A stretch of 38,929 nucleotides of DNA, taken from Ilumatobacteraceae bacterium (GTDB lineage Bacteria > Actinomycetota > Acidimicrobiia > Acidimicrobiales > Ilumatobacteraceae). The position numbers and the translations under genes are program-made. The DNA lies in assembly GCA_021298195.1 (NCBI GenBank), contig JAJTEQ010000011.1:1-38929 (forward strand), read 5' to 3'. This document shows, piece after piece, positions 1,302 to 21,241 of the stretch (positions are counted from its first letter, which is position 1; each line of letters begins with the position of its first letter). The notes beneath the pieces are model-generated. The model did not search any database. It worked only from the letters and a program-made list of their open reading frames with translations, and had not been told where the DNA came from.

Positions 1302-2390
1302 ATGAATCCCGTTCCGGTGCCCCTTCCCGCCAACCGGCGTGACACCCGTCGCCGTTTCGAGCAATGGGTCAAACATCCCGGCTGCGGTGCCAACCTCGTG
1401 TCGGCGGTGCACAACGTCAAGATGGGTGCGGTCGCGCGCCGCGAGAATCCCTCGGCTCCGAAAGAGGGTCAGTCCTCGTTCGCTCTGGCGCGTGGTCGCC
1501 GTTTCGAGGCGGGCTTGGTCGCCGACAACGGCGAGCGACTGCTGCGCGCCATGTCCGCACGGCAGATGTTCGACCGGCCAGATCCGCATTTCCTCGACTT
1601 TCGCATCTCCATCAACGGCGGTCCGTTGGCCGACATCGACGACGCCATCGCCCACACCGAGAAGTTCCTGCAGGTGTTGGCGAGGGATCGCTCGTTCGAA
1701 GGCGTCGTCTCCAGCGCCACGTTGCGTATTCCCAAGGGCGTCATGTTGCCCGAGGCCACCCTCATCATCGATGCGTTGGCCGTCACCATGGTCGACGGAC
1801 GTCCGACCATTTCGGTGGGGGAGATCAAGACCTACGCCGATCGAGGTGGACACACGTCGAAATCCGATCTGGCCCACGCCCGCGCGCAGATGGGTCTGTA
1901 CGTCCACGCACTGGCCTTGGTCCTCGAGCAATTGGACCTGGCCGATGACATCGTGTTGTCGTTGCAGGGATTCCTCGTTCTCACGCACCCCGGTTCCAAC
2001 AGTCCCGCGGTGCGAGTGGGTGAGGATCTGCGCTACCAGGCCGAGCGCGCTCGCAAGGGCTTCGAACTGATGGAGGCCGCGGCCAGCGAGATGTCGGACT
2101 TGGTGGGCGATGACGACGGCGAAGGGTCCACGAGCCTCTTCGACATGGTGTTGGCGGCGCCCACCTCGTTCGCTGACGCGTGTCTGTCGTTCTGCGAACG
2201 TGCACCGACCTGTTACGCCAAGGCCGTGGCGAATGGTGATGGTGCTGTATTGGGTGACGACGTCGATCGTTTCCTCAATGGTCTCTCCTTGCGCCGGGCC
2301 GACGAACTCTTGGGAGGCGCGAGGCCACGCAACGACGTCGAGCGCGATTTTCTGCGGCGCATGAAGAATCCGCTGGATGGTGTCTCATGA
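1302..2390 (+). CDS. Cas4/RecB-like PD-(D/E)XK nuclease with probable Fe-S cluster
   Basis: The product has 362 aa. Visible nuclease motifs, in order, are RGRRFE (64-69), an acidic residue after a hydrophobic strand (LIIDAL, D157), E-x-K (GEIKTY, E174 and K176) and Q-x3-Y (Q196, Y200). One N-terminal cysteine (C28) and a C-terminal triplet C294-x3-C298-x5-C304 match the arrangement that binds a 4Fe-4S cluster in Cas4, AddB and Dna2 nucleases. The expected role is single-strand DNA cleavage or end resection. It is the first gene of a coupled operon: its stop overlaps the next start in ATGA (2387-2390). No CRISPR array or cas1/cas2 is nearby, so a CRISPR role is not indicated. The family call rests on motifs only. 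Confidence 0.72.
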   Translation: MNPVPVPLPANRRDTRRRFEQWVKHPGCGANLVSAVHNVKMGAVARRENPSAPKEGQSSFALARGRRFEAGLVADNGERLLRAMSARQMFDRPDPHFLDFRISINGGPLADIDDAIAHTEKFLQVLARDRSFEGVVSSATLRIPKGVMLPEATLIIDALAVTMVDGRPTISVGEIKTYADRGGHTSKSDLAHARAQMGLYVHALALVLEQLDLADDIVLSLQGFLVLTHPGSNSPAVRVGEDLRYQAERARKGFELMEAAASEMSDLVGDDDGEGSTSLFDMVLAAPTSFADACLSFCERAPTCYAKAVANGDGAVLGDDVDRFLNGLSLRRADELLGGARPRNDVERDFLRRMKNPLDGVS

Positions 2391-3895
2391 CGAACGAGAT
2401 TCGCACCACCCGCCGTCTGAGGGCGTGGCACGAGGGGCGCCCGCTCCCTCGTGGCGAGAAGGTGAACGTTCACGTGGGCGACGACGACGAAGTTCTGTGT
2501 CTGTCGTTCGTTCGTATGGGAGGTGAATCGTTGCCGTGGGGGGTGGCCGTCGGACATCCGCACCAGGAGCCGCGCATCTTCACCGTCCCCGACCCGCGTG
2601 ACCGCGACATGGTGGCCGACATGATGGTCGAGGTTGGCAAGGTGCTACTGGAGCACTTCGGACATCCGTCGTTCGCCTCCGACGAGGACGAGGCGATGAC
2701 CATGTACGAGTTCCGGCAGATCTGGGTGCCCGGAGTGTCGCACCTCGAGTTGCTGCACTCGATCGCTTTCGCGTACGCCCGCACCGCGTGGGAGCGACCG
2801 GAGGTCGAAGTTCTGCGCGCTCTCGGCAATCTGGCCAATTGTCTGTTCGTGGAGGCTCAACGTCCGGGCCAGCAGACCGTCGTCGTGGCGCCTCACGCCC
2901 TGACGACGGCGTTCGATTTCCCCAGTTCGCCCGTGCGACAGGCCCATCTCGGGCACCTGCTGGCGTGGATGGGCCGGGAGAAGTCACGCGAGTCGCGCCT
3001 GCGCGCCGCCACCGAGGCCGAGAATTTGTCGGTCGCCACGACCCTCGACCCCGAGTTCGAACGCACTCGACTGGAATCCCTCGTCGAGCGTTGGAACGCA
3101 CCCCCGCGCGATCAGCGCACCGCCAAGGGCAAGCGGGTGGCGCGCGACATCGACAACGTCGTCGCTGAACAGTTGCGACATCGCCATGCACTGGTCGTTC
3201 GAACGATCGACGTCCTGCGTCGGGACACGCGCGGAGCGAACCCCGGACTCGCGGAGTTGGTGCGCATCGGCACCACGAAGTTCGCTCGACTGTGGTGGGA
3301 CCAGGTGGTGCGCGAGCGCTCGGCGAATCCCGACGAGCGCCCGTATTGGCCCGGTCTGCGCGGCGACAACAACGCTCGGCAAGCGGCTTTCGCCTACCAG
3401 CAGCGGGTGGCGTCGTCTCGCCAGGCGTTGCACTCCCTGGTGCACGGTGACCGCACGCTGCAGGAAGAGGAACTGCAACGTGGGCATGGTGTGCGCGCCA
3501 AAGTCGTCGCGGTCGAGGCGGGAGGCGCCCGATGGACACTCGTGTACGACTTTCCGAGTCTGCCCGACATCAAGGTGGGCGGGTCGATGGCGATTGCGGG
3601 TGCCCCCAAGATGCAGGTGAGGGTGATGGCGGTGTCGAATTCGGACCGCACCATCGTCGTGGCCCCGAACTGGTCGGCTCCCAAGAACTCCACCGGCCCA
3701 TTGGCCAAGCGCGCGGGAGATCCCACGTGGCGCGGACGCCAATTGATCCTGATCGAGGATTTTCCCGTCCATTTCACCGAGAGCTCGAGTTATCGGATTC
3801 TCGACAAGACCGAGAGTGGATTCGACATACTCGACCACTTCCGTCACTCCATCGCCACCGAGATCGTCGAGCCGATCGACGGGGGTGACGAATGA
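2387..3895 (+). CDS. Protein of unknown function in a nuclease-helicase operon
   Basis: The 502-aa product is not recognised. No Walker, nuclease or membrane motif is evident. The N-terminal half is mostly helical in character. A middle part is rich in charged residues (about 195-290, including the segment DPEFERTRLESLVERW). The last third alternates short hydrophobic strands with glycines (from about RAKVVAVEAGG to DRTIVVAPNW), which could be a small beta-barrel like the 1B barrel that precedes the helicase core of Upf1 and Dna2; this is a pattern-level guess. It overlaps the genes on both sides by ATGA (2387-2390 and 3892-3895), so translation is probably coupled and the product may act in a complex with the nuclease and helicase. 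Confidence 0.75.
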   Translation: MTNEIRTTRRLRAWHEGRPLPRGEKVNVHVGDDDEVLCLSFVRMGGESLPWGVAVGHPHQEPRIFTVPDPRDRDMVADMMVEVGKVLLEHFGHPSFASDEDEAMTMYEFRQIWVPGVSHLELLHSIAFAYARTAWERPEVEVLRALGNLANCLFVEAQRPGQQTVVVAPHALTTAFDFPSSPVRQAHLGHLLAWMGREKSRESRLRAATEAENLSVATTLDPEFERTRLESLVERWNAPPRDQRTAKGKRVARDIDNVVAEQLRHRHALVVRTIDVLRRDTRGANPGLAELVRIGTTKFARLWWDQVVRERSANPDERPYWPGLRGDNNARQAAFAYQQRVASSRQALHSLVHGDRTLQEEELQRGHGVRAKVVAVEAGGARWTLVYDFPSLPDIKVGGSMAIAGAPKMQVRVMAVSNSDRTIVVAPNWSAPKNSTGPLAKRAGDPTWRGRQLILIEDFPVHFTESSSYRILDKTESGFDILDHFRHSIATEIVEPIDGGDE

Positions 3896-5232
3896 GTTCC
3901 GTCGTCAAGGCACTGCGCGCCTTCGTCGCGGGTTCGGGTGCCATCGCGGTCGTCAAGGCTCCGCCGGGTTCGGGCAAGACGTTCACGTTGGTCGAATCGC
4001 TGGAGGCCGGCATGAAGTCCCACCGGCGCATCGTCATCGCGGCGCAGACCAACAACCAGGTCGACGAAATCTGTCAGCGCATCGCCGATCGTTACCCGGA
4101 GCGATCGGTCGTGCGGTTCTCCGGCTCCGGCTACCAGCGGCCAGCGGACATCGACGAGCGAGTGGTCTTCATCGACAAGAAGAACGCCATTCCCGACGGA
4201 CCGGTCGTCATGGTCGCCACGGTGGCGAAGTTGGCCTTGTCGAAGTTCGACGGCGACTTCGACATCCTCTTCGTCGACGAGGCATGGCAGATGGCGTGGG
4301 CCGATTTCCTGCCCGTGCGCCATGTGGCTGATCGATACGTTTTCATCGGTGATCCGGGCCAGATTCCGCCGACGGTGGCGATCGACGTCGACCGCTGGGA
4401 GTCCTCCGAACATCCACCCCATCAGGCGACCCCCACGTTGATCCTGGAGAATCCCTCCCTCGTTGGTTTGCGCACCGAGTTGCAATTGCCCACCTGTCGC
4501 CGCCTTCCCTACGACTCGGTTCGCTTGGTGAACGGCTTCTACGACTTCGAGTTCGACAGCGACGCCAAACCGGGGGAGCGATTCGTTCGCCCGACGAAGA
4601 AAGCCACGGCCGAGACTCCGGCCGCCGAGGGCGTGGACCGTGCCCTGGCGGCCATGTGGTCGACCTCGCGTCCGACGACCACCTCCATCATCCAGATGCC
4701 CACGCCCACGGGTGGACTCCCGGTGGGCACCGACATCGAGTTGGCCCGATTCACGGCCGCCGTCGTGGCGCGCCTGCTCGAACGTCGTTGTGAGGTGTCG
4801 ACGAAGGTCGACGAGAAGAACGCGCCTCGCCCCCTGCGGCCCGTCGACATCGGTGTGGTCTCCACGCACAATCTCATGAACACCGCGATTCAGAACGAGT
4901 TGCGCGCTCTCTCGCCCAAGTTCGCGTCCATTCGGGTCACCACGCCCGAGCGCTGGCAGGGTCTGGAGAAGCCGGTCATGGTGGCCGTGCATCCTTTGTC
5001 GGGCGTGATGTCACCGTCGGCATTCGATCTGGAGACCGGGCGTCTGTGCGTCATGGCGTCGCGTCACCAGTCGGCGTGTTTCTTCGTCACCCGGGATCAC
5101 GTGAGTGCCACGCTCGACGATCACTTGCCGCTCGCCGACCAGGCCCTCGGCTGCCACGACGCGGTGGGCAAGGGTCACGCACTTCACCGTGCATTTCTCG
5201 AGTATCACCGTGAAAGGAACCTCATTGTCTGA
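3892..5232 (+). CDS. SF1 helicase/ATPase, Upf1/Dna2-like
   Basis: The 446-aa product shows the ordered SF1 motifs: motif I APPGSGKT (23-30), Ia AAQTNNQ (50-56), II FVDEAW (127-132), III GDPGQIPP (153-160), IV LPTCRR (199-204), V PERWQGLEKP (352-361) and VI MASRHQSA (388-395). GDPxQxPP and a motif VI ending in an arginine are typical of the Upf1/Dna2 (SF1B) branch. The chain is close to a bare helicase core: the N-terminal domain and most of the 1B barrel of larger relatives are missing and may be supplied by the upstream gene. It is coupled to both neighbours, by ATGA at 3892 and an 8-nt overlap with the next gene. Translocation of 5'-3' polarity on DNA is expected from the family and is not shown by the sequence. 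Confidence 0.82.
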   Translation: MSSVVKALRAFVAGSGAIAVVKAPPGSGKTFTLVESLEAGMKSHRRIVIAAQTNNQVDEICQRIADRYPERSVVRFSGSGYQRPADIDERVVFIDKKNAIPDGPVVMVATVAKLALSKFDGDFDILFVDEAWQMAWADFLPVRHVADRYVFIGDPGQIPPTVAIDVDRWESSEHPPHQATPTLILENPSLVGLRTELQLPTCRRLPYDSVRLVNGFYDFEFDSDAKPGERFVRPTKKATAETPAAEGVDRALAAMWSTSRPTTTSIIQMPTPTGGLPVGTDIELARFTAAVVARLLERRCEVSTKVDEKNAPRPLRPVDIGVVSTHNLMNTAIQNELRALSPKFASIRVTTPERWQGLEKPVMVAVHPLSGVMSPSAFDLETGRLCVMASRHQSACFFVTRDHVSATLDDHLPLADQALGCHDAVGKGHALHRAFLEYHRERNLIV

Positions 5233-7144
5233 CGTCAAGATCCGAATTCCCGTCGGAGCCACCGGCGACGGTCGCTTCACCACCGACTGCGCGCATCGCG
5301 AGGTGAACAATCGCAACCGGGCGTACGACGATCTGCCCCGCACCGAACCGAGCGCGTTCGTGCAGTTACTGATGGAGAAGGGCTTCGAACACGAAGCCGA
5401 GGTCTTCGCGCGCTTGGAGAGCGCCCACGGAGTGACGCGCTTGCCCGCCATGAACGCGGACGATCTCGTGCGCGAGACCGCGTTGCTGATGCGTAAGGGC
5501 GCTCGTTTGATTCTTGCTGGTGGCTTGCCCACGTTGTCGGGACGTTCCGGCAAGCCCGACATCTTGATACGGGTCGAGCAACCCAGTCGCCACACGGCGT
5601 GGGGTTACGTGCCCGTCGACGTGAAGAGCCACCGTGGTTTCGACGGCAAGGCCAAAGCAAAGTCGTGGTCGATCGGATCGGTTGACGATCCGTTCCTCGA
5701 AGTGGCCGATGCCGTCGAGCAACCGGGTACTCCGGTGTTGAACGACTCGCTGCAGTTGGCGCACTACTGGGAAATGTTGGCCGAGCTCGGTTGGTCTCCG
5801 AGTGTCGATCCGGTCGGTGGCATCTTCGACGTCGATCTGAACCTGCTGTGGCGCCGACTCGATGAGCCGATGTGGCGACACGAGCACCCCGGAACCGGCG
5901 CCACCGAGTCGCGCAGTGCTCTCGACATCCTCGGCCTCGAATGGGAGTTTCGCTGGGAGGCCATCGCGCGCATGCTCGACGGCGACAATCCGATCACCGA
6001 GCCGATTCTTCACGGCAACTGTGCGACGTGCGTATGGAAGGACGTGTGCTACGACGAACTGGACACGGCCGAGCACATCTCGTTGATCGCCGGCGTCACG
6101 AAGGCCCACGTGAAGAAGCTCGCGTCCATCGGCGTTCGCACGCAGTCACAACTGGCGGCCCTCGACGTGAGCACGGCCTCGTTGATCGATCGCGCCTATT
6201 CGGTCAACGTGGACGTCGCAAAATACTGGTCGGCGGCCAGGGCCCACCCGAATCCGGACGACTCGGTGGCCAAGATCACGGGGAAAAGCAAGAAAGCCCG
6301 CGAGTTCTTCGAATCGGAGGGCCTGATCTCGGTCGCCGACGTGTCGACGCTCGATCCGCACTTGGCTTCGATGCCGTGGTTCGCCAACGTCACACGTCGT
6401 ATCGACTCGGCGCGCGTACGTCTGCACCCCGACGGACTGCCGCACCTTCCTCGCACCGAGTCGGTGCCCGTGGTCCCGCGGGCCGACGTCGAAATCGATG
6501 TCGACATGGAGAACTCCGACATCGTGTATTTGTGGGGGACCAACGCGACCGTTCGCGATGGTTTGCGCCCGCCGTCGACGGTGACGGTCGGATACCGCCC
6601 CTTCCACACGTTGGTCGGAGGGCACACCGACGAAGCCGAGGCGTTCATCGCGTTCTGGACGTGGATGCACGCGGTCATCGACGAGTGCACCCGACTCGGA
6701 TCGACCGTTCGGTTCTATTGCTACACCGATGCCGAGAACTCGCGCATGCACGAGATCGCCCGTCGCTGGCCCGACTTTCCGGGCATGCCCGACCATGAAG
6801 TCATCGACGCGTTCTGCGCCTCCGACACGTGGGTGGACTTGAAGAAGAACGTCGATGCGCTCATCTGGCCCGCGGATTCCTTGGGTCTGAAGAAGGTGGC
6901 TCCGCTGGCCGGTTTCTCGTGGCGCGACGAGGACGCCGGCGGTGACAACTCGATTCTGTGGTACGAGTTGGCGGTCACCTCGCACGACGAAGCGGAGCGT
7001 CGCGCGATGAGCGAGAAACTGCTGCGGTACAACGAGGACGACGTGTTGGCCACCAAGGTGTTGCGCGAGTGGCTGGACGACGGCCTCAACGGGCGCGGCC
7101 CGGTGTTCCGTAGCGTCGTGGATCTGGACCCGTTGTACGAATGA
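5225..7144 (+). CDS. TM0106-type RecB-like nuclease with C-terminal RNase H-like domain
   Basis: The 639-aa product appears to carry two nuclease sites. The first is PD-(D/E)XK: GKPDIL (D112), VDVKS (D132 and K134) and Q177-x3-Y181, with C22 plus C266-x2-C269-x5-C275 as probable Fe-S ligands. A helix-hairpin-helix-like stretch (about 284-325) follows. The second is DEDD/RNase H-like: DVDMEN (D427, E429), WVDLKK (D538) and YNEDDVLAT (Y602, D606). This order matches TM0106-family nucleases, which in other bacteria are often fused to a Dna2-like helicase; here the helicase is the preceding gene. TTG 5225 is chosen because AAGGA (5214-5218) lies 6 nt upstream and the gene then overlaps the helicase by 8 nt; in-frame GTG 5210 is an alternative. 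Confidence 0.78.
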   Translation: MSDVKIRIPVGATGDGRFTTDCAHREVNNRNRAYDDLPRTEPSAFVQLLMEKGFEHEAEVFARLESAHGVTRLPAMNADDLVRETALLMRKGARLILAGGLPTLSGRSGKPDILIRVEQPSRHTAWGYVPVDVKSHRGFDGKAKAKSWSIGSVDDPFLEVADAVEQPGTPVLNDSLQLAHYWEMLAELGWSPSVDPVGGIFDVDLNLLWRRLDEPMWRHEHPGTGATESRSALDILGLEWEFRWEAIARMLDGDNPITEPILHGNCATCVWKDVCYDELDTAEHISLIAGVTKAHVKKLASIGVRTQSQLAALDVSTASLIDRAYSVNVDVAKYWSAARAHPNPDDSVAKITGKSKKAREFFESEGLISVADVSTLDPHLASMPWFANVTRRIDSARVRLHPDGLPHLPRTESVPVVPRADVEIDVDMENSDIVYLWGTNATVRDGLRPPSTVTVGYRPFHTLVGGHTDEAEAFIAFWTWMHAVIDECTRLGSTVRFYCYTDAENSRMHEIARRWPDFPGMPDHEVIDAFCASDTWVDLKKNVDALIWPADSLGLKKVAPLAGFSWRDEDAGGDNSILWYELAVTSHDEAERRAMSEKLLRYNEDDVLATKVLREWLDDGLNGRGPVFRSVVDLDPLYE

Positions 7145-7156
7145 TCGCGGGGCCGT

Positions 7157-7990
7157 TCAGCGCCCCACCACCAGCGTCACGAGGCCGACCACCATGGTCG
7201 ACGACGCCACGACGCGGCGCACGCCGCTGCTCTCCTTCAGCACCTTCCAGCCGATGAAGGTGGCGAACACCACGCTGGATTCCCGCAGGGCGGTGACGTA
7301 TCCCACCGGCGCGCGCCGAACCGCCAGGAGCACCATCCAATAAGTGACCAGAGATGCCAGACCCGTGAGGGCGTACTGGCGCCACATGGACGGAAGGCTC
7401 GCTCTCATCTCGTTCCAACGTCGGCGCAGCATGCCGTGGGCGGTGGTGAAGAGGCCGCCGGTGACGAAAATGGACATCGCGTAGGCGCTACCCACGGTCG
7501 ATCGCGAACCCTTGCTGTCGATCACCGTGTACGCCCCGATCAACAGGCCGACCACCAACGCGGGCCACACGTGATCCCGATCCACGTGTCCGGCCAGCAA
7601 CACCAGGCCGCCCACCACGATGAGGATGCCGATCATCGAGACCGTGGTCAGATGGTCCGAGAGGAACAGCACACCCCCGATGGCGGCGAACAAGGCACCT
7701 CCACCACGGGCGATGGGATAGGTCACACTGAAGTCGGCGATGTCGTAGGTGCGCGCGAGGCGCCCGATGTAGAACGCGTGGACGATGCCACTCGCGGTGG
7801 CCCAACCCCACGCGCTCCATCCGAGGTCACCCGACGCCGTTGCCACCACGGCGTACGGAAGGCCGATCAACCCGCCGGCGGTGAAGAGGCCCCACAACGC
7901 CAGCCACCGATCTCCGGACTGTTTGATGCGCAGATTCCAGCCGGCATGTAGCACGGCGGCACCGAGCGCCAGAGCGGTGGCGACGAGCAC
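7157..7990 (-). CDS. EamA/DMT-family membrane transporter
   Basis: The 277-aa product is almost entirely hydrophobic helices, with two EamA-like halves (roughly 1-120 and 135-277). This is the drug/metabolite transporter fold; substrate unknown. Short arginine-rich loops such as GMLRRRWNEMR suggest cytoplasmic segments. GTG 7990 lies 6 nt after the stop of the Dabb gene on the same strand, so the two are probably cotranscribed; no clear ribosome binding site is seen. The 3' end converges on the nuclease operon with a 12-nt gap. Confidence 0.8.
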   Translation of the reverse strand: MLVATALALGAAVLHAGWNLRIKQSGDRWLALWGLFTAGGLIGLPYAVVATASGDLGWSAWGWATASGIVHAFYIGRLARTYDIADFSVTYPIARGGGALFAAIGGVLFLSDHLTTVSMIGILIVVGGLVLLAGHVDRDHVWPALVVGLLIGAYTVIDSKGSRSTVGSAYAMSIFVTGGLFTTAHGMLRRRWNEMRASLPSMWRQYALTGLASLVTYWMVLLAVRRAPVGYVTALRESSVVFATFIGWKVLKESSGVRRVVASSTMVVGLVTLVVGR

Positions 7991-7996
7991 GTCGGC

Positions 7997-8314
7997 TCAG
8001 GACCCGGCGGGAATCGGGAACTGGATGGAGGCGCGAGTGTCGATGTACGGCGCGGTGTATTTCTCGATGAAGATCTTGTGATCCGGATGGTCGCGATAGA
8101 CGAGGTAGTCCTCGACGCTGTCGAACTCGGCCGTCACCGCGAAGTCGTACGTGCCCGGGTTGACGCCGAGGTTCGCGCCGTAGTGATACGACCGGATCTG
8201 GGGAATCTTGGGTCGAAGTTCGGCCAAGGCCGCCGTCGTGCGCTCGGCATGACCGGCGGGGGTGTCGGATTTCCAGTTGAAGAGCACGATGTGGCGGATG
8301 CGATGTGCGGACAT
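7997..8314 (-). CDS. Dabb-family (stress-responsive alpha/beta barrel) protein
   Basis: The 105-aa product begins IRHIVLFNWK and contains the pattern of a Dabb ferredoxin-like domain (YDFAVTAEFDSVEDYLVYRDHP, then FIEKY). Such proteins form dimeric barrels; the biochemical role is usually unknown. ATG 8314 is preceded on its own strand by TAGATT and exactly 6 nt, so it is probably translated from a leaderless transcript. It is first in a two-gene unit with the EamA transporter and diverges from murI. Confidence 0.8.
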   Translation of the reverse strand: MSAHRIRHIVLFNWKSDTPAGHAERTTAALAELRPKIPQIRSYHYGANLGVNPGTYDFAVTAEFDSVEDYLVYRDHPDHKIFIEKYTAPYIDTRASIQFPIPAGS

Positions 8315-8326: not shown

Positions 8327-8408
8327 AACCGCGGTCACGAATCACCGTGCATTTACAGTGCATTCACCGTGGATGGTGACATGCGAGGAACAATCGGGTG
8401 ATTTCTCG

Positions 8409-8414
8409 TAACCT
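8409..8414 (+). promoter_or_regulatory. Leaderless-type -10 for murI
   Basis: TAACCT is followed by 7 nt and GTG 8422. The same hexamer and spacing occur before proS on the other strand. It would lie inside the gene if the upstream GTG 8398 were the start. Confidence 0.4.
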
Positions 8415-8421
8415 CTGCGAC

Positions 8422-9264
8422 GTGAACTCCACCGCCGACATCGCCGGACCGATCGGTCTGTTCGATTCCGGGTTCGGCGGCCTCACCGTGGCGCGCGCGG
8501 TCATCGACCTGCTTCCCCACGAGGACGTCATCTACATCGGCGACACCGGCCGTTATCCCTACGGTGACAAGGATCCCGGCGACGTGCGCTCCTACGCCCG
8601 CGAGTTGGCGTGGAGTCTGGTGCGTGATTTCGGAGCCAAGGCCATCGTGGTGGCCTGCAACACCGCCGCGGCCGCGTTGCCGGTGCACGAACTGGAGGCC
8701 GAGTTCGCCGCCGAGGGTTTGAGCGTGCCCATCCTCGGTGTCATCGAACCGGGTGCACGCGCGTTGGTGCACTCCACCCGTTCGGGCGACATCGGAGTCA
8801 TCGGCACCATCGGCACCATCGGGTCGGGTGCCTACGACCGCGCGGTGGCCCGAGCCGGAATCGGCGCCACCATCCGCCTCACCAGCGCCGCCTGTCCGGG
8901 CTTCGTGGAGTTCGTCGAACGCGGTCGTACGTCGGGACCCGAGGTCGTCCTGCTCGCCGAGCGTTTGTTGGCGCCCATCAGAGACGCCAAGGTGGACGCA
9001 CTGTTGCTGGGTTGCACGCACTACCCCTACCTCGCGCGCGTCATCACCGAGGTTCTCGGAAGCGACGTGATCCTGGTGTCCTCGGCCGACGAGACGGCGT
9101 TCGCACTGCGCGAGCAACTCGGTGACACGGGACTGTTGCGTTCGGACGACCACGAGCCTCGGCATCGATTCATGTCCAGTGGCGACGTCTCGTGGTTCCA
9201 GACTCTCGGTCAGAAACTGTTGGGGCCCGAGTTGGCCAACGCCGAAACCTGGACCCCTCGCTGA
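8422..9264 (+). CDS. murI: Glutamate racemase
   Basis: MurI makes D-glutamate for peptidoglycan. The N-terminal signature [14 protein letters not shown] is present, as are both catalytic cysteines, in VVACNTAAA and LLLGCTHYP. Two starts are possible. GTG 8422 (280 aa) follows a TAACCT -10 by 7 nt and fits the leaderless pattern in this window. GTG 8398 (288 aa) follows GAGGA (8386-8390) by 7 nt, but its extra residues look atypical. I prefer 8422 without certainty. murI, rph and rdgB follow one another as in Mycobacterium. Confidence 0.93.
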
Positions 9265-16969: not shown

Positions 16970-17416
16970 CGCCACGGTGGTGGTGTCCGTCACGGGAACC
17001 GTCGTGTCCGGTCCCTCGATGCCGATCACGTCCGGCATGTCGACGCCACAGGTCGACTCCACCCATGTTGCCACCGCGCGGGCACTTCGTTCGGCCGTGT
17101 AGGCCGCATCGGCCAGGTCCTGTCGGCTGCGCGGATCCTCGAAGTCGACGTCCTCGGCGGAGCGCAGGAGTTCGGTGATGACGTGCCAATCGTCGCGAAT
17201 GGCCAACGGCGTGATCTCGTCCAACTTCTCGTAGCGATCGACGAGGTCACCGATCTCCTCGGAGGTCGAGAGTGGTCCACCAAGGCCGGCCACCGACTCG
17301 GACAGTTCCCCGCAGAACCGGGCTCCGCTGCGGTCGGTGTCGCTGCACGCCACCAACGTCGACGCGACAGCGACGACGAGACAGACGGTCGTGGTGAAGC
17401 GATCGCGAGCACGCAT
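16964..17416 (-). CDS. Small secreted lipoprotein, function unknown
   Basis: The 150-aa product has an arginine-bearing N terminus, a hydrophobic stretch and a lipobox LVAC (cysteine 24), followed by a polar, acidic, helical domain with two further cysteines (FCGEL and STCGVD) that could form a disulfide. It ends in a threonine/proline-rich tail. It would be lipidated and exposed outside the membrane. The domain is not recognised. The minus-strand sequence GAGAAT lies 8 nt before ATG 17416, a possible -10 giving a nearly leaderless transcript. It diverges from comM. Confidence 0.72.
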   Translation of the reverse strand: MRARDRFTTTVCLVVAVASTLVACSDTDRSGARFCGELSESVAGLGGPLSTSEEIGDLVDRYEKLDEITPLAIRDDWHVITELLRSAEDVDFEDPRSRQDLADAAYTAERSARAVATWVESTCGVDMPDVIGIEGPDTTVPVTDTTTVAP

Positions 17417-17543
17417 GAGTCGTCATTCTCTCAGGTCGTCCATCGGGAATCCGGTCACATCGTTCGACGCGTCCTCGCCGGTCGTCGTACCGAGTCGCAC
17501 ACACGACGTCATGCCGGACATCCGGCCAGAACGCGAGGTACGC

Positions 17544-19115
17544 ATGCTCTCCACGATTCGCTCGGCCAGTGTCATGGGCTCCCAGGGGGCATCGGTCCAC
17601 GTCGAGGTGCACATCGGGGTCGGACTGCCGACGTTCACCATTCTCGGGCGTCCCGACGACACGTGTCGCGAGTCGCGCGACCGCATTCGTACCGCCGTCC
17701 TGTCGAGCGGGTTCCACTGGCCCTCTCATCGCATCACGGTGAACCTGGCGCCGTCCACGCATCGCAAGACCGGTACGGCGCTCGACGCGGCCATGGCCGT
17801 GGCCATCCTCGTCGCCGACGGGCAGATTCCGCCCGAGGTGGTGGACGGACTCGCGCTGATCGGCGAACTCGGTCTCGACGGTCGTCTGCGACCGGTCTCG
17901 GGCGTGGCGCCGATGGTGATGTCGTTGGTGCACGACACCGACGGTGACCTCGACGACGATCGACCGTTCATGTCCCCGTTGCGTGGTGTGGTGGTCCCGG
18001 TCGGCAACGTGGACGAGGCCCGCATCGCCAAACCCCCGTCGTTGCGCTCCGTGCGCACGTTGCGGGAATTGGTCGAGTGTTTGGTCGGTTGCGAGCCATG
18101 GCCCGATCTCCCGCCACCGGCCACCCCTCGGGCCCTCGCACCGCTGCCGGATCTGGCCGACGTTCGTGGTCAGGATGCCGCACGTTTGGGTCTGGAACTG
18201 TCCGCCGCCGGCGGGCACCACGTGCTCCTCGTGGGTCCGCCCGGATCCGGCAAGACGATGCTGGCTCGACGATTGCCGGGATTGCTTCCGCCCCTCGACG
18301 ACGCGACGTCCTTGGATGCCACGCTCGTGCGATCGGCGGCCGGCGAGAAGCTGTCGGGTGACGGCTTGGTCACTGCGCCTCCTTTTCGCATGCCGCATCA
18401 TTCGGCGAGCACCATCTCCATCATCGGCGGTGGTTCCTCGTCGTTGCGACCCGGCGAGGTCAGTCTGGCCCACGGTGGCGTGTTGTTTCTCGACGAGTTG
18501 GGCGAGTTCGCACCCTCCACTCTCGACGCCCTGCGTCAACCGCTCGAGAGCGGTCGCATCCGCATCGACCGTGCGAACACCCGTCTGGAACTTCCCGCGC
18601 GGTTCACGTTGGTGGCCGCCACGAATCCGTGTCCGTGTGGGGGTGGAGCACCGGGTTCCTGCGAATGCGACGAGACCGCGTTGTCCAAGTATCGCCGACG
18701 ATTCAGCGGACCCTTCATGGACCGCTTCGACGTTCGGGTTCTGGTCCATCGTCCCCGGGTGGACGATCTGCTCGGCGAGAAAGCCGGTGAGAGCACGGCG
18801 GTGGTGCGCGAGCGGGTGATGCGAGCACGCGCCATCGCGCTCGAGCGGCAGGGATCGTTGAACGCGTTCCTCACCGGCGACGAACTGGATCGCTTCGCAC
18901 CGGTGAACGAGCGGGGCATGGCGCTGTTGCGCGCCGAACTGGAGGCCGGTCGACTCACCGGTCGCGGGTTGCATCGCATCCGGCGGGTGGCGCGCACCAT
19001 CGCCGACCGCGAGAGCGAATCCGAGCGCATCGACGAATTCCACGTTGCCGCGGCATTGGCTCTGCGGGCTCGTATCGCTCCTCGGCGCGGTGACGACGTG
19101 CGACGAGTGACATGA
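17544..19115 (+). CDS. comM: ComM-type AAA+ ATPase (YifB / magnesium chelatase-like)
   Basis: The 523-aa product begins MLSTIRSASVMG, the usual start of this family, then a ChlI-like N-terminal domain (GLPTFTILGRPD), Walker A GPPGSGKT (about 231-238), a catalytic segment around LFLDELGEF, and the four-cysteine NPCPCGGGAPGSCECD insertion. ComM is a hexameric helicase that promotes branch migration during natural transformation. ATG 17544 has GAGG (17535-17538) upstream; the frame is open to 17337 but the extra residues do not resemble the family. Its stop overlaps the dprA start (ATGA, 19112-19115), as expected for a DNA-uptake pair. Confidence 0.9.
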   Translation: MLSTIRSASVMGSQGASVHVEVHIGVGLPTFTILGRPDDTCRESRDRIRTAVLSSGFHWPSHRITVNLAPSTHRKTGTALDAAMAVAILVADGQIPPEVVDGLALIGELGLDGRLRPVSGVAPMVMSLVHDTDGDLDDDRPFMSPLRGVVVPVGNVDEARIAKPPSLRSVRTLRELVECLVGCEPWPDLPPPATPRALAPLPDLADVRGQDAARLGLELSAAGGHHVLLVGPPGSGKTMLARRLPGLLPPLDDATSLDATLVRSAAGEKLSGDGLVTAPPFRMPHHSASTISIIGGGSSSLRPGEVSLAHGGVLFLDELGEFAPSTLDALRQPLESGRIRIDRANTRLELPARFTLVAATNPCPCGGGAPGSCECDETALSKYRRRFSGPFMDRFDVRVLVHRPRVDDLLGEKAGESTAVVRERVMRARAIALERQGSLNAFLTGDELDRFAPVNERGMALLRAELEAGRLTGRGLHRIRRVARTIADRESESERIDEFHVAAALALRARIAPRRGDDVRRVT

Positions 19116-20275
19116 CGATCGCACCCGACGACACCGAACGAGTCGCCGCCTGTCGTCTCGCCAATCTGCCCCACGTCACCGCCCGACGACTGCGACTACT
19201 GCTCGCCCGGGGCCTCCCGTCGGTGATCGTCGATCGATTGCGTGACGGGGACTGGGACTCCGATCCGGTCATCGCCAAGATGTTGTCCTTCCCCCCGTCG
19301 AGGTCGGCGGGTCGTTCGCTCGCGGACCTGTGGCGCGAGACGCTCGTCTCCTCGTCCACCGAGAACCCTCTCCCACCCGACGTCGATGTGCGCGTGTGGG
19401 GGATGGCCGACTACCCGGAGTGTCTGGTCGGGGATCCGTCGGCTCCGGCGGTTTTGTTCTCGCGGGGCGACGTCTCGGTGTTGGGAGGGCGACGAGTCGC
19501 CATCGTGGGCACCCGAAACGCCACCGAACACGGACGCGGAGAGGCCCGTCGCTTCGGTTCCGAGCTCTCCGAGGCCGGAGTCCAGGTGGTGTCGGGTTTG
19601 GCGCGCGGTATCGATGCCGCCGCCCATCGCGGAGTGTTGGACGCGGGCGGGTCGGGACGCCCGGTGGCGGTGGTGGCCAGTGGACTCGACGTCGTGTACC
19701 CGCCCGAACACGACCGGTTGTGGTCGATGGTCGGTGAGCGCGGGTTCCTGTGCACCGAGTCGCCGTTGGGCACGGTCCCCGAACCGTTTCGCTTTCCCTT
19801 GCGCAATCGGATCATCGCCGGTCTGTCCGAGATCGTGTTGGTGGTGGAGTCGCGATTGGAAGGTGGGTCGTTGATCACCGTGCGCGAGGCCCTGCAGCGC
19901 GGGATCACGGTGATGGCGGTGCCGGGCGCCACCAGCACGCGCGCCTCGCAGGGCACCAACATGCTCATTCGCGACGGCGCGTTGGTGGCCATCGACACCG
20001 ACGACGTGTTGGCGGTGTTGGGCCTCGACCATCGACGGGCGACCGGACGGTTCGATCCGCGGGTGCCCGCGGTGGGGATCGACGCACGCATCCTCGAGCT
20101 GTTCGATGCCGAACCCTTGTCGCTGGACGACGTGGCCACCCGTGCCCGTGACACTCTGGACATCTCGTTCGGGGCCACCGCGGTCAGCCTGGGGCGATTG
20201 GAAGCCGCAGGCTGGTTGATCTGCACCAGTGGATGGTTCGAACGGGCCCGGGTCCGGGATTCGGGCGTGACCTGA
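19112..20275 (+). CDS. dprA: DNA processing protein DprA/Smf
   Basis: The 387-aa product loads RecA on incoming single-stranded DNA. The Rossmann-like core is visible: VAIVGTRNATEHGR (about 129-142), VVSGLARGIDAAAHRG, ASGLDVVYPPEH, FPLRNRIIAGLS and ESRLEGGSLITVREA. An N-terminal helical domain (about 1-60) and a C-terminal winged-helix-like region (about 320-387) flank it. It is coupled to comM and followed by xerC. Confidence 0.92.
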   Translation: MTIAPDDTERVAACRLANLPHVTARRLRLLLARGLPSVIVDRLRDGDWDSDPVIAKMLSFPPSRSAGRSLADLWRETLVSSSTENPLPPDVDVRVWGMADYPECLVGDPSAPAVLFSRGDVSVLGGRRVAIVGTRNATEHGRGEARRFGSELSEAGVQVVSGLARGIDAAAHRGVLDAGGSGRPVAVVASGLDVVYPPEHDRLWSMVGERGFLCTESPLGTVPEPFRFPLRNRIIAGLSEIVLVVESRLEGGSLITVREALQRGITVMAVPGATSTRASQGTNMLIRDGALVAIDTDDVLAVLGLDHRRATGRFDPRVPAVGIDARILELFDAEPLSLDDVATRARDTLDISFGATAVSLGRLEAAGWLICTSGWFERARVRDSGVT

Positions 20276-20314
20276 CCCGTCATCGAGCGACGGTGCCATC
20301 GGCCACCCTGTCGG

Positions 20315-20320
20315 TACTCT
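20315..20320 (+). promoter_or_regulatory. Leaderless-type -10 for xerC
   Basis: TACTCT is followed by 6 nt (GCCCCC) and ATG 20327. No ribosome binding site is present. Confidence 0.5.
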
Positions 20321-20326
20321 GCCCCC

Positions 20327-21241
20327 ATGGCTCGGTCCGCGACCTCGACGTCTCCGGCGGTCGATCCGTCGTGGCGGACGACCGACTTCGTCGGGTCGCT
20401 CACGGCCGCCTCGGAGAACACCAAGTCCGCCTACGCGTCCGACCTGGCGGCGTTCATCGGCTGGTGCGCATCGGTCGATGCGATCGTTCCCTCCGACGTC
20501 GACCGATTGTTGTTGCGTCGCTACCTCGCGCATCTGGCCGCGAATCGATTCGCCAAGCGCAGCATCGCGCGCAAGGCCGCGGCCATTCGTCGATATTTCG
20601 GATGGGCTCGTCGCACCGGTGTGGTCGACGCCGATCCGTCGCTCGGTCTGCGGGCTCCCGCGGGGGAGGGTCGCCTGCCACGCGTGCTCGACGGAGCCGA
20701 ACTACGAACGTTGCTCGAACCCGAGACCGCCACCGACGACTCCGAACCGCAATGGCGCCGACGACGCGACGACGCGTTGATGGAGATGCTCTACGGAAGC
20801 GGTCTGCGCGTGAGTGAACTGTGCTCGCTCGACCTCGACGGTGTCGACTCCCGGCGGGGGGTCGTCACGGTGTGGGGCAAGGGTGGCAAGGAACGACGGG
20901 TCCCGATGTCGCAAGCGGCCGTCGAGGCGGTGAAGACGTGGATCACCAGTCGACGCGAGGTGCGGACCGACGAGTCCGGTGCGGCCCTGTTCCTCAACGC
21001 TCGGGGCGGGCGCGTCGGAGCCCGAGACGTGCGTCGGGTGATGGACCGTCGCAGCTCCCGTCCCACGCATCCGCACGCCCTGCGACACACGTTCGCCACC
21101 CACCTGCTCGATGGCGGGGCCGATCTGCGGGCCGTTCAGGAACTGCTCGGTCACAGCGACGTGGCCACCACGCAGAGATACACGCACGTGAGCAAAGAGC
21201 GTCTACGGTCTGTGTACACGAACACTCATCCCCGGGCCTGA
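20327..21241 (+). CDS. xerC: Tyrosine recombinase XerC/XerD-type
   Basis: The 304-aa product has an N-terminal SAM-like core-binding domain and the C-terminal catalytic domain with R161 (GSGLRVSEL), K185 (GKGGKER), H250-x2-R253 (HPHALRHTF), H276 (LLGHSD) and nucleophile Y285 (TTQRYTHVS). It resolves chromosome dimers at dif. Size, position between dprA and whiG, and lack of phage genes argue for the housekeeping recombinase over a phage integrase. Confidence 0.9.
   Translation: MARSATSTSPAVDPSWRTTDFVGSLTAASENTKSAYASDLAAFIGWCASVDAIVPSDVDRLLLRRYLAHLAANRFAKRSIARKAAAIRRYFGWARRTGVVDADPSLGLRAPAGEGRLPRVLDGAELRTLLEPETATDDSEPQWRRRRDDALMEMLYGSGLRVSELCSLDLDGVDSRRGVVTVWGKGGKERRVPMSQAAVEAVKTWITSRREVRTDESGAALFLNARGGRVGARDVRRVMDRRSSRPTHPHALRHTFATHLLDGGADLRAVQELLGHSDVATTQRYTHVSKERLRSVYTNTHPRA

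Follow-up and report, generated by a model that had tools for sequence, protein, structure and literature searches.

Dna2 combines an Fe-S Cas4-type PD-(D/E)XK nuclease with a superfamily 1B (SF1B) helicase that has an accessory barrel and stalk, and AddB also carries an Fe-S nuclease. Fusions of a UvrD helicase to a Cas4 nuclease are already known to be associated with type III restriction-modification (R-M) loci, as set out in section 8 of PMC5704561. In a 38,929-nt stretch of DNA from an Ilumatobacteraceae bacterium (GCA_021298195.1, contig JAJTEQ010000011.1, positions 1-38,929 of the forward strand; hereafter, the window), we describe a four-gene operon, A-B-C-D, coding for predicted nucleases, a predicted helicase, and a subunit without a family. 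The evidence leans towards this being a split Dna2-like DNA-end helicase-nuclease, which would occupy the RecBCD niche here and act as an accessory to defence systems elsewhere. The genes, all open reading frames (ORFs), are as follows:

1302-2390, + strand: gene A, 362 amino acids (aa)
2387-3895, + strand: gene B, 502 aa
3892-5232, + strand: gene C, 446 aa
5225-7144, + strand: gene D, 639 aa, TTG start

A first-pass annotation of the window had proposed a same-strand operon with overlaps of 4, 4, and 8 nt, and this layout is confirmed by the ORFs (A/B, B/C, and C/D, respectively) and by its recurrence in other loci. With the start nearest the upstream stop chosen at each locus, a choice that favours small distances, the A-B and B-C distances are each -4 in 25 of 30 loci from several phyla, and the C-D distance is -8 with a TTG start in all 14 measurable loci. 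The exceptions are L082, L122, L131, L132, and L136 for A-B, and L079, L082, L122, L134, and L135 for B-C; the annotated C start in L134 gives an 11-nt overlap with B instead. Because the same distances recur across loci, we regard the overlaps as non-accidental, the constant -8/TTG being informative despite the nearest-start choice. The order A-B-C is retained in every locus where all three genes were found.

Protein A is a predicted Cas4/RecB-type PD-(D/E)XK nuclease with an Fe-S-type cysteine site. The 25 diverse A proteins compared all keep its four cysteines (C28 and C294-x3-C298-x5-C304) and its catalytic-type residues (D157, E174-x-K176, Q196, and Y200). A Foldseek search of the PDB with its AlphaFold2 model (pLDDT 80.3) gave 583 matches, four of them at E ≤ 0.001: three chains of SSO0001 (best 3.1e-4), which we take to be a Cas4 protein, and MGME1 (7.8e-4). 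Weaker matches include EXO5, RecE, lambda exonuclease, Dna2, AdnAB, and RecBCD, together with DinG and a viral cap-snatching endonuclease. A has no match in Pfam, NCBIfam, or PADLOC, and a profile search of the PDB returned a single match, at 0.39. A recognisable paralogy between A and the nuclease of D was also considered and rejected, as hhalign aligned the Cys region only (Probab 0.33 of 100).

By families and motifs, protein C is a predicted minimal SF1B (Upf1/IGHMBP2/Dna2-type) helicase core. It matches AAA_11 (4.4e-18), AAA_12, and TIGR00376 (7.5e-14; 51.1 bits, below the cut-off of 348.9), is of the IGHMBP2 type, and reaches only 21.4 bits with UvrD-helicase, under the cut-off of 23. 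The motif residues (P24-P25-G26-x-G28-K29, D129-E130-A131, G153-D-P-G-Q157, and S390-R-H392) are invariant in 25 of 25 C proteins. The similarity reaches the RNA helicases Sen1, NAM7, and Aquarius, and PADLOC gave 34 partial helicase matches (best 2e-11). Since the PDB profile matches begin at residue 200 of SMUBP-2 (7.3e-13) and residue 634 of DNA2 (5e-10), C is without the region preceding motif I, which in SMUBP-2 and DNA2 we take to be the stalk and 1B barrel.

Protein B has no family match in Pfam, NCBIfam, or PADLOC, and PADLOC likewise has no match to A or B when these are taken from four divergent loci; a search of phages gave no match to the B of the window. Its AlphaFold2 model (pLDDT 87.6, pTM 0.85) has an alpha/beta plus helical N-terminal part and a C-terminal helix-beta barrel-helix at about residues 330-473. 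Because C is without the pre-motif-I region while B, whose gene ends 4 nt inside C, has this helix-barrel-helix C terminus, we propose that residues ~330-473 are the stalk/1B of the helicase, which appears to be divided over the two proteins and not just minimal. Foldseek found nothing at E ≤ 0.001 for the B model in either the PDB or BFVD. A ribosomal protein and chains of F1-ATPase head the PDB list, in which Sen1 appears three times (ranks 19, 29, and 31; prob 0.41-0.47). Five among the 50 BFVD matches listed are replicase polyproteins, from endornaviruses, coronaviruses, or toroviruses; most of the remainder are either unnamed or proteins of the phage tail or collagen-like kind. These searches returned no aligned positions. 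The C terminus of B weakly resembles accessory parts of Upf1-type helicases, which is compatible with a 1B barrel and no proof of one. Two other candidates for B were rejected: a degenerate RNase H/DEDD domain (Probab 0.10 of 100 when aligned to D with hhalign) and the best profile match in the PDB, the designed protein Tako8 (3.8e-4).

Protein D matches TIGR03491 (TM0106) at 163.9 bits, above the cut-off of 97.45, as well as RNase_H_2 (6.7e-12). We take its first part to be a PD-(D/E)XK nuclease (four cysteines, C22, C266, C269, and C275, with D112, D132, K134, Q177, and Y181) and its second an RNase H-fold DEDDy-like exonuclease (D427-x-E429 ... Y602-x3-D606); the linker between them is helix-hairpin-like by eye, and both motif sets are invariant in 11 of 11 D proteins. 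D has no match in PADLOC or by profile search of the PDB, and a literature search on 'TM0106' gave nothing relevant. The first-pass annotation had read A as a Cas4/RecB-like nuclease, D as a TM0106-type double nuclease, and C as a minimal SF1B helicase. The call on A is borne out by the invariant motifs and the SSO0001/MGME1 fold matches, and that on D by the TIGR03491 score and the two motif sets; for C, the families and PDB profiles support a minimal SF1B core, read now as part of a helicase that looks split over B and C.

Within the genus, represented by 24 genomes, operon genes and RecB appear to be mutually exclusive. A was matched in 14 genomes, C in 14, D in 13, and B in 16, one of these (G009, 9.8e-4) being discounted, and at least one of A-D is strong in 16. 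RecB is strong in six genomes, all outside those 16 (G004, G006 as fragments, G007, G008, G010, and G017); no genome has both, and two have neither (G018, 68% complete; G022, 60%). The hypergeometric value of this pattern, 2.1e-4, takes no account of relatedness, and we do not count it as proof. Scans of G000, G003, and G020 for UvrD_C and PDDEXK_1 found no protein of RecB/AddA/AdnA size, the longest UvrD_C frame being 905 aa and PcrA-like.

The two systems occupy the same chromosomal slot, whose borders in the window are as follows:

282-1229, + strand: cysM, left border (tblastn in relatives; named from the first-pass annotation and by eye)
7157-7990, - strand: EamA-type transporter gene, right border, convergent to the operon (named by eye)
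7997-8314, - strand: Dabb-type gene, after EamA (named by eye)
8398-9264, + strand: murI, after Dabb (named by eye)

The cysM-murI interval had been described as otherwise conserved, which is not the case: EamA- and Dabb-type genes lie in it too, and its cysM-EamA part is a variable slot with A-B-C-D, recC-B-D, or nothing inside. Genus contigs that span the operon have the order A-B-C-D, and the window, L038, L039, L040, L041, and L043 read cysM-A-B-C-D-EamA. G008 reads cysM (L097)-recC-recB-recD-EamA-Dabb-murI; its recC scores 395.7 bits with TIGR01450 (4.7e-118), below the cut-off, and passes Pfam Exonuc_V_gamma and RecC_C. In the sister genome G004, recB reaches 509 bits with TIGR00609 (2.6e-152; cut-off 696, not attained) and recD lies above the cut-off of TIGR01447 (9.4e-121). 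recB is close to EamA in G004 and G017, as is a RecB C-terminal fragment in G006; the RecB contig of G010 has no link to the slot. In G007, several other genes come after cysM, followed by a divergent recC and recB (31% identity), recD, and EamA. The genes from cysM to recCBD (L098:1033-7206) include two with Pfam matches, FtsK-like and CorA-like, and one that looks DnaQ-like by eye, which suggests that insertion here has happened more than once. cysM abuts EamA in G020, G001, and G012, whose operon is located elsewhere; L094-L096 show the slot empty.

Beyond the genus, A-B-C is widespread, occurring in other Acidimicrobiia, Streptomyces-like genomes, Streptomyces plasmids, Palauibacter, Planctomycetales, and an Acidobacterium. 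A survey of the order gave matches in 5 of 298 genomes and one of the phylum in 16 of 396, one of these 16 matches (at 4.6e-4) not having been inspected; ten of the 16 come from a single genus with large genomes, for which the label Streptomyces-like is inferred. Named genome contigs with B comprise 29 loci: Palauibacter (2), Planctomycetales (1), Acidobacteria (1), and actinobacteria by title under various names (25), two of the last being titled as 'Bifidobacterium breve' metagenome-assembled genomes and probably mislabelled. Plasmids searched with Streptomyces-like B gave three records, and with Palauibacter B none. A histidine-phosphatase-like gene lies nearby, by eye, in nine of 11 Streptomyces-like regions (not in L121 and L132).

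An A+B+C tree of 29 loci, with low support at several inner nodes, separates the A-B-C-D loci from all others with support of 1.00. Nearer to them are the Palauibacter, Planctomycetales, Acidobacteria, and three type III R-M loci; farther away are the Streptomyces-like, plasmid, Nonomuraea, L122, and L051 loci. L037 and L044, where the operon lies outside the cysM-EamA slot (G020 and G001), group with loci of another group with support of 0.16, hinting that their A-B-C were acquired separately. D is coupled to A-B-C in one clade only, as seen from the survey of gene order and the tree: the fetched stretches of loci outside the A-B-C-D clade have no D inside the operon, and the sole such case with a TM0106 gene near A-B-C is G495 (L137:892-2445), where it lies beyond type III Mod/Res. 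The earlier proposal of one operon survives a search for scattered genes in relatives, which bears out co-conservation and synteny, with the qualification that the co-conserved core is A-B-C and that D joins it in a single clade.

Outside that clade, A-B-C often neighbours defence genes. A defence neighbour was found by profile, annotation, or eye in 10 of 13 loci, a count for which 11 Streptomyces-like chromosomal regions and Nonomuraea L136 had been set aside beforehand, the neighbour proteins for family searches were picked by eye, and there is no background rate of defence genes. Family searches placed HEC-05 and SIR2/ThsA beside L079; AbiTii, ZacB (Azaca), and DUF6361 beside L081; SIR2 with a STAND NTPase and a Schlafen-type helicase beside L080; and a type III methyltransferase and a UvrD-type helicase beside L087. 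L051 neighbours an N6_N4 methylase and, by eye, Res; L088 a UvrD-PDDEXK protein and, by eye, Mod/Res; L086 Mod/Res by eye; and L120 type III Mod and Res, on whose far side lies a TM0106 gene. L082, L122, and L123 (the last without a called C) have no defence neighbour by eye. A recurrent cassette in L086, L088, and L120 comprises A-B-C, a convergent UvrD-type helicase, and type III Mod and Res, the PDDEXK domain of that helicase being shown in L088. L087 (G071) has the same cassette as a decayed copy, with B broken by stops (L087:1304-2866) and A and C open.

In two Streptomyces plasmids (L134 and L135), which complete the ten loci, A and B, annotated 'hypothetical protein', and C are followed by genes annotated as Wadjet JetA-D. 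SbcC/SbcD genes lie on the other side of A-B-C in the L134 plasmid, and short frames in L135. SbcC/SbcD, a 281-aa protein without known function, A-B-C, and Wadjet form one block at L134:2343-18676, and L135 is alike without an intact SbcCD annotation; this block is possibly one composite anti-plasmid system. Elsewhere in the window, ORFs resembling ComM, DprA, and XerC by eye lie at 17337-21241, about 10 kb downstream of the operon, and the remainder appears to consist of housekeeping-type genes.

In the mechanism we infer, which extends to a complex, its polarity and substrate, end resection, and a division of labour, C would be the SF1B motor with two RecA domains, B would give the stalk/1B barrel and a docking platform, and A would be an Fe-S PD-(D/E)XK nuclease cooperating with the motor. 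In acIV-type Acidimicrobiia, which we take to be a common freshwater group, A-B-C would have gained D, bringing a second Fe-S nuclease and a 3'-5' DEDD exonuclease. A-B-C-D would there be the cell's DNA-end processing machine, unwinding from a broken end, with nucleases that may degrade foreign linear DNA and at host breaks leave single-stranded DNA for recombination, the niche of RecBCD. Outside this clade, A-B-C may finish off DNA cut by other defence systems. A setting in end processing, repair, or defence had been anticipated in the first-pass annotation, and both the RecBCD exchange and the defence-gene neighbours support it.

Several observations weigh against this reading. The A model aligns to SSO0001 and MGME1 with low TM-scores (0.19-0.26 by query), and the structural matches of B are weak, with other barrels outranking the helicase ones. 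In a tree of cysM, EamA, murI, and Dabb from 18 genomes, three of them represented by cysM alone, the RecBCD clade falls within the operon bearers, so that the exclusivity amounts to about one operon loss and one or two RecBCD gains; on the strength of this tree we rejected many independent exchanges. G023 is a partial exception, with A-B-C and a 969-aa UvrD_C+PDDEXK_1 protein; a UvrD_C frame of 1093 aa is present in G328, the genome of operon locus L066, and A-B-C carriers outside the clade have additional long UvrD_C proteins. G330-G334, whose completeness is unstated, have no comparable frame. In five small genomes of the same family (G024, G025, G026, G028, and G032; 91-98% complete), the UvrD_C proteins are only shorter or PcrA-like and a single-protein query, which may miss a distant A, found no A; with apparently neither A nor a RecB/AddA/AdnA-type protein, the niche may be empty there.

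These last genomes would also suit a purely anti-phage or anti-plasmid role with no housekeeping repair, the cysM-EamA slot being an insertion hotspot that also received RecBCD, as would the defence neighbours in 10 of 13 loci and a slot that may be empty (L094-L096) or hold further genes (G007). We think this unlikely, though worth keeping in view, as operon genes are present in 16 of the 18 RecB-less genus genomes (the other two being 60% and 68% complete) and in none of the six with RecB, and no defence neighbours were seen by eye, the one approach used there, at the window locus, L037/L065, L070, L072, L073, L074, or L076. The products might alternatively act separately, or as two groups (A with B-C, and D independently), sharing the operon for regulation only; the absence of D from the operon outside the A-B-C-D clade, where only G495 has a TM0106 gene nearby, is in keeping with this, and the recurrent overlaps (C-D in 14/14, A-B and B-C in 25/30 each across several phyla) make it improbable. 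Poorer still are the prospects for a motor working on RNA or R-loops in the manner of Upf1 or Sen1: the likeness to Sen1, NAM7, and Aquarius is met by Cas4/RecB-type nuclease companions, the exchange with RecBCD, and neighbours that are largely DNA-targeting systems, and we give it hardly any credence.

By the features compared, the operon is not a member of Dna2, RecBCD, AddAB, or AdnAB. The likeness to Dna2 lies in two of the proteins: A has Cas4-type nuclease motifs with a four-Cys site, from whose residues an Fe-S cluster is predicted, and its model matches Dna2 chains weakly (E 1.3e-2 and 2.9e-2), and C is an Upf1-like SF1B core whose profile matches DNA2 structures at 5e-10. The stalk/1B barrel is missing from C, and the helix-barrel-helix of B, with its weak Sen1 and viral replicase matches, may be its counterpart. 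However, Dna2 is one chain, whereas nuclease, barrel, and helicase are here on three ORFs, the large N-terminal part of B found no counterpart, and D brings two more nuclease domains. RecBCD, whose unwinding and breakdown of DNA ends are under the control of Chi, is likewise a multi-subunit helicase-nuclease and holds the same slot in sister genomes, but family searches found no RecB, RecC, or RecD homologue among A-D, and the operon motor is of the Upf1/IGHMBP2 SF1B type and not UvrD-like. AddAB and AdnAB share the multi-subunit helicase-nuclease logic, and the A model matches AdnAB chains weakly, but they differ in their subunits and in their UvrD-type motors, which the operon lacks. D passes the curated cut-off of TM0106, but no helicase is fused to it; instead, the D gene overlaps that of C.

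None of the literature matches listed describes an equivalent of A-B-C, and among PADLOC (2023) systems A, B, and D are unmatched and C has partial helicase matches only. The UvrD-Cas4 protein of PMC5704561 is similar in pairing a Cas4-like nuclease with an SF1 helicase near type III R-M genes, and a UvrD-PDDEXK protein lies inside the A-B-C cassette of L088; however, that helicase is UvrD-like and fused, whereas C is neither UvrD-type nor fused to A, and section 8 and the figure legend of that paper describe no A-B-C-like genes. If our reading is true, A-B-C(-D) is a DNA-processing machine that is spread widely but has had no name, and one of its subunits, B, represents an uncharacterised family. 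It would then be an example of a nuclease-helicase from defence taking over what RecBCD does, a link between immunity and recombinational repair, and would provide the acIV-type group with its DNA-end processing enzyme and a clear target for reconstitution. We tentatively suggest that A-B-C(-D) could join RecBCD, AddAB, and AdnAB as a fourth kind of multi-subunit DNA-end helicase-nuclease in bacteria. Built on a split Upf1/Dna2-type SF1B motor, it would have passed from defence islands to housekeeping in acIV-type actinobacteria and been replaced by RecBCD at the same site in one clade.

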